From Steroidobacter agaridevorans (GTDB lineage: Bacteria; Pseudomonadota; Gammaproteobacteria; Steroidobacterales; Steroidobacteraceae), in the NCBI RefSeq assembly GCF_009932555.1, contig NZ_BLJO01000004.1:710428-763140 (forward strand): a stretch of 52,713 nt of DNA, given 5' to 3'. Both the position numbers and the translations under genes were made by a program. Under the pieces are notes generated by a model, which worked only from the letters and a program-made list of their open reading frames with translations, was not told where the DNA came from and did no database searches. Below, one piece after another: positions 23,279-52,651 of the stretch (position 1 is the first letter of the stretch; each line of letters opens with the position of its first letter).

Positions 23279-23461
23279 TTAGAGCGGGCGCTGCCAGGTC
23301 GTCATCGAAGACGAGGCCTGCGCTTTCAACTGCTCCAGGGCCGGCGACTGGACGGCCGCCTCGGGCTTGGAGGCATTCGTTCCAGGGGCGACCGTGTTGG
23401 TGGCGACCGCTGTGGACATCAGACTGGCAGCAACCACCATAAGGATTGGGATGCGTTTCAT
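23279..23461 (-). CDS. Small secreted protein, 60 residues
   Basis: This 60-residue protein has a signal peptide (MKRIPILMVVAASLMSTAVA, cleavage likely near ATN or VAP). The short mature part is rich in Ala, Ser, Pro and Gln, contains the helix-like ALEQLKAQASSSM and ends in TTWQRPL. I do not recognise it. Its ATG (23461) has GGAGAA four bases upstream, the same sequence used by the repeat-protein gene 22 bp upstream, so both are real genes and probably one transcript. The tail RPL echoes the KRPLL of the neighbouring repeats, which may be chance. A partner, chaperone or second secreted factor for the repeat protein is possible, but nothing in the sequence proves it. Confidence 0.6.
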   Translation of the reverse strand: MKRIPILMVVAASLMSTAVATNTVAPGTNASKPEAAVQSPALEQLKAQASSSMTTWQRPL

Positions 23462-23483: not shown

Positions 23484-23912
23484 TCAGGCGACGAGGGGGC
23501 GCTTGCCGCCAACCGTGCCATCAGCCAGGAGCGGACGCTTGCCGCCGACCGTGCCGTCAGCCAGGAGCGGGCGCTTGCCGCCAACCGTGCCATCGGCCAG
23601 GAGCGGACGCTTGCCGCCGACCGTGCCATCAGCCAGGAGCGGACGCTTGCCGCCGACCGTGCCATCAGCCAGGAGAGGGCGCTTGCCGCCAACCGTGCCG
23701 TCAGCCAGGAGCGGGCGCTTGCCGCCGACGGTGCCATCGGCCAGGAGCGGGCGCTTGCCGCCGACCGTGCCATCGACCAGGAGGGGGCGCTTGCCACCAA
23801 CCGTGCCGTCAGCCAGCAGCGGGCGCTTGCCGCCAACCGTGCCATCGGCCAGGGCGACGTTCGCCATCAGTGCAAAGGACACAGCGAACGCCGAAATAAT
23901 CTTGCTACGCAT
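23484..23912 (-). CDS. Secreted protein of ten tandem 12-residue repeats
   Basis: This 142-residue protein consists of a signal peptide (MRSKIISAFAVSFALMANVA) followed almost wholly by ten copies of ADGTVGGKRPLL. One copy has Val for the first Ala, and the last copy ends LVA. The copies differ at many third codon positions (Leu, Ala, Asp, Thr, Val, Gly, Arg and Pro codons all vary) but hardly at all in amino acids, so the peptide itself is under selection. Each unit has a dibasic KR next to GG, reminiscent of processed peptide precursors, and no cysteine. ATG 23912 has GGGAGAA nine bases upstream. A perfect CRP-type site lies 78 bp upstream of the start. I know no named family for it. Possible roles are a processed secreted peptide, an envelope-binding repeat or a beta-solenoid; all are inference. 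Confidence 0.8.
   Translation of the reverse strand: MRSKIISAFAVSFALMANVALADGTVGGKRPLLADGTVGGKRPLLVDGTVGGKRPLLADGTVGGKRPLLADGTVGGKRPLLADGTVGGKRPLLADGTVGGKRPLLADGTVGGKRPLLADGTVGGKRPLLADGTVGGKRPLVA
23490..23851 (-). repeat. Ten 36-bp tandem coding repeats
   Basis: These are the DNA units behind the repeat protein. Two adjacent copies are identical; the others differ at up to about seven of 36 positions, nearly all third codon positions. There are no spacers, and the frame is kept throughout. Confidence 0.95.
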
Positions 23913-24253
23913 ATCAACGTTTCTCCCGCAAACAATGTGCTAAGCCACCCGCTCGACAGGACGAATCATAGACATAACCGTTGTTTAATTGTGATCCTCG
24001 TCACACTGGAAATGTTCGATTATGTTATCTCCAATGCAAAATCAGGGTATTGCTTAAGCGGCACTGCATCCTGCGGCCCTAGGTGGTCGGCGTGAGAACC
24101 CGGACGAGAACCTCGAAACTGGAAAGTCCGACACGCAAACATCCTGTTTTTTACGGAGAATTGGCGCTCGTCCGAGGGTTGTTATTCGATGTGGCTTTGC
24201 ACATCCCTGGTCCGATCCGCCACTGACGTTTAGTAACTATCGATGCCGATCTA
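23913..24253. other. 341-bp divergent promoter region (repeat protein / kinase)
   Basis: This is the most AT-rich gap in the left half (around 23965-24055) and should hold both promoters. Besides the CRP-type site at 23990-24005 I see no gene. The kinase start has only a weak upstream purine stretch. Confidence 0.55.
23990..24005. promoter_or_regulatory. Perfect CRP/Clp-type binding site
   Basis: TGTGATCCTCGTCACA is an exact TGTGA-N6-TCACA. Its near edge is 78 bp upstream of the repeat-protein start and 249 bp from the kinase start. At that distance class-I or class-II activation of the repeat-protein gene is plausible. Confidence 0.65.
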
Positions 24254-27012
<2,759 letters not shown>

Positions 27013-27016
<4 letters not shown>

Positions 27017-52541: not shown

Positions 52542-52651
52542 GCACAGTCGGTGGGGGTTTCAGCTCGATCGCGCAAACATCTGGCCTGGGTAATGGGAGG
52601 GACATCCTGGGGAGGGACATCCTGGACACCCACCACGCCATCTGTGTCTGA
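52540..52651 (+). pseudogene. Scrap of a further RHS tip
   Basis: Directly after the membrane gene the frame reads STVGGGFSSIAQTSGLGNGR and runs to a stop at 52649-52651. It begins with the 17-bp sequence shared with the orphan tip (STVGG there too) and has no start codon or ribosome-binding site of its own. It looks like the remains of another displaced tip. The match is short, so this is tentative. Confidence 0.4.
52596..52632. repeat. Two tandem 15-bp repeats plus right copy of the 12-bp repeat
   Basis: GGAGGGACATCCTGG occurs twice in tandem (52596-52610, 52611-52625), running into CCTGGACACCCA (52621-52632), which is also at 51097. It may be part of a dispersed extragenic repeat; that needs the whole genome to tell. 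Confidence 0.55.

Follow-up and report, generated by a model that had tools for sequence, protein, structure and literature searches.

A secreted array of near-identical short peptides as candidate ligand of a tetratricopeptide-repeat receptor kinase in Steroidobacter agaridevorans

Why would a bacterium export a chain of ten nearly identical 12-residue peptides, and what could receive it? The question is raised by a gene in a stretch of 52,713 nucleotides of the soil bacterium Steroidobacter agaridevorans (the window; contig NZ_BLJO01000004.1, positions 710,428 to 763,140), which lies divergently beside the gene of a Ser/Thr receptor kinase with tetratricopeptide repeats (TPRs). The repeat gene is real, conserved and unusual, and we lean towards a reading in which its product is a multi-copy secreted peptide ligand of the adjacent kinase. 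This reading is based on the almost constant presence, beside such genes, of a kinase of one subfamily and of a small "tail" protein ending in a Pro motif; on a signal peptide (by eye), purifying selection on the core of the unit, and units that track the receptor tree; and on a TPR model that has peptide-gripping TPR proteins among its nearest solved structures, together with a CRP-type site upstream. The kinase as fixed neighbour, the second small gene downstream and the wholesale change of the unit between genes all go beyond an earlier sequence-only reading of the repeat gene. Few ligands are known for bacterial Hanks-type receptor kinases, and peptide signalling by way of TPR receptors is a known feature of Bacillota, where the receptors are intracellular. 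Literature searches of open-access papers returned no description of a module of repeat peptide, tail protein and receptor kinase, and we know of no described family for it.

The repeat gene and the constraint on its unit

The repeat gene is laid out as follows.

23484..23912, minus strand: secreted tandem-repeat protein of 142 residues, made of a signal peptide, ten units, a last residue and the stop
23850-23912, minus strand: signal peptide of the repeat protein, residues 1-21, judged by eye
23490-23849, minus strand: ten 12-residue units, unit ADGTVGGKRPLL
23923..23927, minus strand: GGGAG, likely ribosome-binding site of the repeat gene, read from the sequence

The open reading frame (ORF) was found where the sequence-only reading had placed it, with ten near-identical units following a signal peptide; here and in all homologues, signal peptides and export were assigned by inspection, without a signal-peptide predictor. 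The opposite strand is likewise open, and the minus strand is taken as coding because the signal peptide, the GGGAG site, the silent-site pattern and the conservation all lie on it. Tandem Repeats Finder (TRF) reports a 36-nt period with 10.0 copies and a score of 568, its two other rows for the window scoring 53 and 62. Written as a peptide, a single unit reads ADGTVGGKRPLLADGTVGGKRPLL. The codons vary at eight of its 12 positions (A, D, T, V, the first G of GG, R, P and the first L), whereas only two residues change in the array: copy 3 has Val in place of Ala, and in copy 10 the last Leu has become Val. Divergence had been described as silent only, and apart from these two substitutions it is: internal differences amount to 0.28-0.29 at silent sites (pS) and 0.008-0.009 at replacement sites (pN).

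The array is beyond chance, since a 92%-identical relative, a second gene in the own genome (G000; units DGDTGGKRPVFNIV and DGDTGGKRPVLA) and members in 9 of the 14 genomes of the genus were found, the last with a three-unit profile. Among 98 relatives' genomes, 10 were matched, including one (G036) that was discarded as chance on account of four internal stops. Three weak profile matches among 203 genomes of the family's other genera were also dropped as probably chance (L053 and L054 were inspected), and in a 369-genome sample of the class the profile matched the own genome only. In units resembling D-x-x4-K-R-P, the x4 part is uniform or nearly so within a protein and differs between proteins. 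The inference that the repeats are old and that selection holds the peptide was borne out by these homologues: in L037 the core DGDSGGKRP is identical in 20 of 20 copies written in 18 DNA versions (pS 0.66, pN 0), and in L007 all 12 cores are identical in 12 DNA versions. Across 14 arrays of the KRP type, core pN is 0 in eight and otherwise at most 0.056 (L041), with pS from 0.14 to 0.66. As judged from these sequence comparisons, the unit core is under strong purifying selection.

The unit had been thought to lack a known family, and indeed neither the repeat nor the tail protein matched Pfam or NCBIfam above cut-off; for the repeat protein, the PGRS repeats model PF21526 reached 17.9 bits against a gathering cut-off of 27. 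An Rfam scan of the window returned no RNA family. Matches in 1543 plasmid records, all below 60% identity, were set aside as compositional. Two of them were opened (H2 by annotation alone, and H3), and the compositional reading follows from the position of the H3 match between repE and parA, an interval which we take to be typical of iteron DNA.

A signal peptide followed by identical cores would also suit a multi-core precursor of ribosomally synthesized and post-translationally modified peptides, its units being modified and released as bioactive or antimicrobial peptides. Some chains are cationic (that of the window has a net charge of +10), and P0002 weakly matched a chryseobasin precursor model, at 13.4 bits against a cut-off of 50. 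However, 26 of 27 proteins with at least three copies have no Cys after residue 21, and a Pfam scan of nine conserved-neighbour proteins revealed no maturation enzyme (cluster 4, present in 6 loci, is without a Pfam match). Over 30 proteins the net charge spans -5 to +10, so that the chains are not consistently cationic, and a plain cationic antimicrobial peptide was rejected as inconsistent with this spread. Such a precursor is the least probable of the explanations weighed here.

Pairing with a receptor kinase and a tail protein

The genes on either side of the array are the following.

24254..27016, plus strand, divergent from the repeat gene: Hanks-type Ser/Thr receptor kinase of 920 residues, with PF00069 at residues 91-310 and TPR families PF13424 and PF13374
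25496..25561, plus strand: single transmembrane segment of the kinase, residues about 415-436, by hydropathy
25604..27013, plus strand: periplasmic part of the kinase (residues 451-920), modelled as a TPR superhelix and proposed to bind peptides
23279..23461, minus strand: small secreted tail protein of 60 residues, starting 22 nt after the repeat gene and ending ...WQRPL

Because RFIRRNR precedes the transmembrane segment, the kinase domain is placed inside and the C-terminus outside. The periplasmic part was modelled as a TPR superhelix, and the closest solved folds were APPBP2 with an RxxGP peptide and then the Rap/NprR pheromone receptors, other TPR proteins being close behind. APPBP2, the human CRL2 receptor of RxxGP degrons, is part of a eukaryotic ubiquitin ligase at 17% identity and would serve as a fold analogy only. 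In 16 of 17 stretches around KRP-type repeat genes, the repeat gene is adjoined by a Ser/Thr kinase that carries TPRs and is about 920 residues long; the 17th (L039) begins within the array, and the kinase is present in L040, probably the other half of this locus. The two repeat-adjacent kinases of the own genome are 49% identical over nearly the whole length, and the next match is 38% identical, from residue 72 on.

The kinase subfamily was found to occur also in genomes without the KRP repeat, and secreted arrays of other units diverge from such kinases: QVAVSLPPSRPPA and FAAENNPPMRPLAQ (both G013), LADNIxVRPPVLQ (G012), LASSPGGIRPPQV (G029), a VTKLPRV-type unit (G028), AGGRIPHADVKL (G195), MDGTTVPLPPKF (G023), QDAHPANPPRFAV (G015), VLDSAPTLPPRAG (G167), LDLPPTVPPHLAS (G164) and FEVRDSIGTHPPQ (G156). 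When 396 genomes of the order were searched with a profile of the periplasmic part, four candidates being scored per genome, 34 places down to 316 bits were obtained, all in Steroidobacteraceae, followed by others from 307 bits downward. No clean score gap separates the subfamily from its sisters (366, 316, then 307 bits), and the two weakest of the 34 places, at 366 and 316 bits, run into contig ends, which puts the border of the subfamily beyond the reach of context. With two more places in G005 the subfamily counts 36 kinases, of which six are cut by contig ends and 30 have readable loci. At 27 of these 30, a secreted array of 3-20 copies lies opposite the kinase (three arrays run off contigs), and at the other three (G005:C37, G047, G159) there is a short secreted ORF with two, partly degenerate, copies.

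Controls support the pairing. Around the 21 other kinase matches of the own genome, stretches of 10-12.5 kb yielded no secreted tandem-repeat ORF, and none of 14 sister or distant kinases had an array with a signal peptide, so that 0 of 35 other kinases face a secreted repeat gene. Low-complexity ORFs at the edges of L224 and L239 score 14-16 of 24, against 22-24 for arrays of at least three copies, and neither is beside the kinase. In the sample of 369 genomes of the class, no place outside the family exceeded 262 bits among the matches listed.

Of 29 loci examined, 27 have a counterpart of the tail gene, encoding 57-81 residues, about 5-93 nt downstream of the repeat gene; it was not found in L139 and L140. 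The nearest ORF was taken where several were listed, and three further arrays run off contigs. The last two tail residues are P-[LIRQF] in 27 of 27, a pattern shared by 5 of 228 mechanically called ORFs of at least 100 residues in 17 stretches. The tail end often resembles the unit (KRPLL/QRPL, KRPLF/RRPF, LPPRA/APPR and HPPQF/APPQ, by eye); this likeness fails in L033, with unit KRPLL and tail KAPI.

Several observations concern contig ends and more distant kinases. Subfamily kinases in L111, L132 and L136 start 51-311 bases from the contig end, close to the expected start of an array, as would be consistent with assemblies that break at repeats; in G168:C31, L196 and L197 the contig starts inside the kinase gene. 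Sister TPR kinases (L198 4732-5085, L200 2809-3117; L202, L204, L205 and L078) have a divergent short Lys-rich gene upstream that starts with MATKKK... or MATRKK..., has no evident signal peptide, and ends in or holds ASIVRPPQ, ASIVRIPE, TSIIRLPQ, ASVVRPPQ or ATVVRTPQ; here too, an R-x-P or R-P-P motif adjoins a TPR kinase. In L207, L208, L209 and L211, small ORFs upstream of more distant TPR kinases carry an LPPQ motif just before a hydrophobic segment.

Change of the unit between genes

The unit is uniform within a gene and changes wholesale between related genes (KRPLL, SRPPA, MRPLA, IRPPQ, LPPRA). A tree was made of the TPR parts of 37 kinases, four of which are sister kinases. In it the units change along with the receptors: neighbouring receptors carry similar units, and clades with KRP units contain other types as well. 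In G011, the nearest relative, Thr is replaced by Val in 10 of 10 copies; silent diversity within the arrays, 0.29 in the window genome and 0.34 in G011, is at least as large as the silent divergence of the kinase, 0.287. For DGDTGG (G000) and DGDSGG (Peristeroidobacter soli), silent diversity inside the arrays is 0.435 and 0.518, against a silent divergence of 0.345 between the two genomes. Since the diversity within arrays reaches or exceeds the divergence between genomes, the residue change reached all copies and the silent differences stayed or were regained, a case of concerted protein evolution with persisting silent differences between copies. Copy-by-copy orthology of G000 and G011 was not established (permutation P 0.08, and 0.21 without the Ala/Val change), and ten parallel changes are therefore indistinguishable from replacement of the array. 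Higher-order repeats were observed in which codon versions of one peptide core recur, two versions alternating in P. soli, with period 2 in L034 (8876-9613) and period 3 in L037 (3261-4190). Adjacent copies differ more at silent sites in L034 and L036, besides the period of three in L037; this is not general over 10 arrays.

Freely changing homologues had been named by the sequence-only reading as evidence against selection on the peptide. Units do change between genes, but in concert across the copies, which points to a matched ligand rather than to absent selection. It is plausible, though we hold it only tentatively, that the receptor kinases have private peptide channels, one to three per genome, in which the unit is a recognition code that changes in all copies and diverges with the TPR groove. 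If the pairing is one of ligand and receptor, about thirty natural unit-receptor combinations are available for the study of specificity.

Release of the units by a protease at GGKR, as had been suggested, fared less well. Pro follows KR in every unit, and Pro after KR blocks most dibasic proteases; moreover, KR is replaced in related loci by SR, VR, MR, IR, LPPR or HPPQ. Both facts argue against dibasic cleavage of the array, which the sequences do not support. A broader form of the idea, a protease-fed pheromone released at the unit boundary and sensed by other cells, finds some encouragement in the KRP family, where most units share with the end of the signal peptide a hydrophobic-x-A-D-like junction, and in the duplicated propeptides, with up to 8 copies, of RRNPPA systems (PMC11343458). 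Conservation of this junction does not extend beyond the KRP type, however, no shared protease gene was noticed at the loci, and the Pro after KR tells against this form as well, so that we consider it very improbable.

Regulation, possible mechanism and known systems

One further feature lies between the two divergent genes.

23990..24005, minus strand: CRP-type site TGTGACGAGGATCACA (TGTGA-N6-TCACA), perfect match, 93 nt before the ATG of the repeat gene

The motif TGTGA-N6-TCACA lies 81-140 nt before the start codon with no mismatch in 14 of 30 loci and one mismatch in 6, the remaining 10 having at least two mismatches; the 30 loci are related and hence not independent. A Crp-type helix-turn-helix was found at nine places in the own genome, which makes it plausible that one of its Crp-type proteins reads the site. 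About 145 upstream bases and the signal-peptide codons (window 23847-24060) are nearly identical in G011 (L029), with 0 of 66 coding bases differing, in the same genome pair whose kinases differ by 0.287 at silent sites. This suggests a constraint at the nucleotide level beyond the CRP-type site. Upstream of that site, an inverted repeat TTCAGGGTTCYCCTGAA is conserved in the related loci L032, L035 and L036 and is not intact in the window.

Regulated expression, as suggested by the CRP-type site, would also be expected if the repeat protein were output rather than input, a disordered matrix or surface polymer under the control of a kinase that senses something else. Divergent regulator-target pairs are common, structure prediction gave no confident fold of the repeat chain, and Gly plus Pro make up as much as 0.38 of the mature chain (0.33 in the window). 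Yet the same fraction is only 0.10-0.16 in some members, and many loci manage with two to five copies. The constancy of the core through as many as 20 copies, with silent sites varying widely, is stricter than would be expected of a bulk polymer, the unit follows the receptor tree, and the tail protein has its Pro motif at the C-terminus. A polymer is accordingly judged unlikely.

For the ligand reading, a mechanism may be proposed in which an exported, unfolded chain of identical short peptides would act as the cognate ligand of the adjacent kinase. The units, as chain or as released peptides, would occupy the groove of the periplasmic TPR superhelix, and their occupancy could activate or silence the kinase domain in the cytoplasm; the tail protein may enter the same groove via its C-terminus. 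The output would go to the ECF43-type sigma factor in those loci that have an adjacent one, such as the paralogous locus of the own genome, and to another target in the window locus. A gene for an extracytoplasmic function (ECF) sigma factor adjoins the kinase in 8 of 17 stretches, and the window kinase has no adjacent ECF gene. The sigma factor of the paralogous locus L007 passes TIGR02999 and carries QATA; ECF43 members have a QTTA motif (PMC13147305, PMC8999054).

The nearest known logic is that of RRNPPA propeptides with two to eight pheromone copies (PMC11343458). As in Rap-Phr and NprR-NprX, a TPR receptor gene adjoins a small exported propeptide gene, here at 27 of 30 readable loci, and in Phr105 the pheromone is duplicated (ERPVGT twice). 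RRNPPA receptors are cytoplasmic and their hosts are Bacillota, whereas here the TPRs form the periplasmic end of a 920-residue Ser/Thr kinase of a gammaproteobacterium, most loci have 3-20 copies, and a tail protein is added. RRNPP_detector looks for intracellular receptors of 250-500 residues (PMC10075063), unlike this kinase of 920 residues from Steroidobacteraceae (Pseudomonadota), with one transmembrane segment and its TPRs outside. The mechanism would be a variant of TPR-peptide signalling, seemingly an analogue of RRNPPA with a periplasmic receptor. The FxSxx-COOH system likewise pairs a TPR protein with small proteins of conserved C-terminus; its TPR protein model (NF040586) scored 87.9 bits with the kinase against an NCBIfam cut-off of 300, and its tail sequence differs from that of the tail proteins here.

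A likeness in receptor architecture is offered by PknS-EcfK and PknT-EcfP, pairs of a Hanks-type kinase and an ECF43 sigma factor. PknS shares the N-terminal Hanks kinase, the single transmembrane segment and the periplasmic TPRs (PMC13147305), and an adjacent ECF sigma factor with a QxTA motif occurs in L007; the window locus differs in that no ECF gene is adjacent. PknS is reported to have 833 residues and three TPRs, and the parts of the source consulted mention no ligand, tandem-repeat or tail gene (PMC13147305). If the ligand reading is true, the array would be a candidate ligand type for PknS-like kinases. A related scheme would make the array a resting-state ligand that holds the kinase inactive in the periplasm until envelope damage or predation frees it and the kinase turns on. 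Xanthomonas citri PknS lacking its periplasmic part was phosphorylated without stimulation and the full-length protein was not (PMC13147305), which implies that a TPR part can restrain its kinase, and many copies would raise avidity. The analogy with PknS is a distant one, however, and function was not restored by truncated PknS (PMC13147305); we give this scheme a small chance.

Other neighbours were also recorded. Paralogous loci (L007, 10554-16533, and its relatives) have conserved genes downstream of the repeat and tail genes, for a TlpA-like thioredoxin, two TPR proteins and a protein of 197 residues that has no Pfam match; in six stretches a Ysc84-family protein lies beyond the kinase. 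At 52595-52625 of the window, TRF reports a 15-nt tandem GGGAGGGACATCCTG in 2.1 perfect copies.
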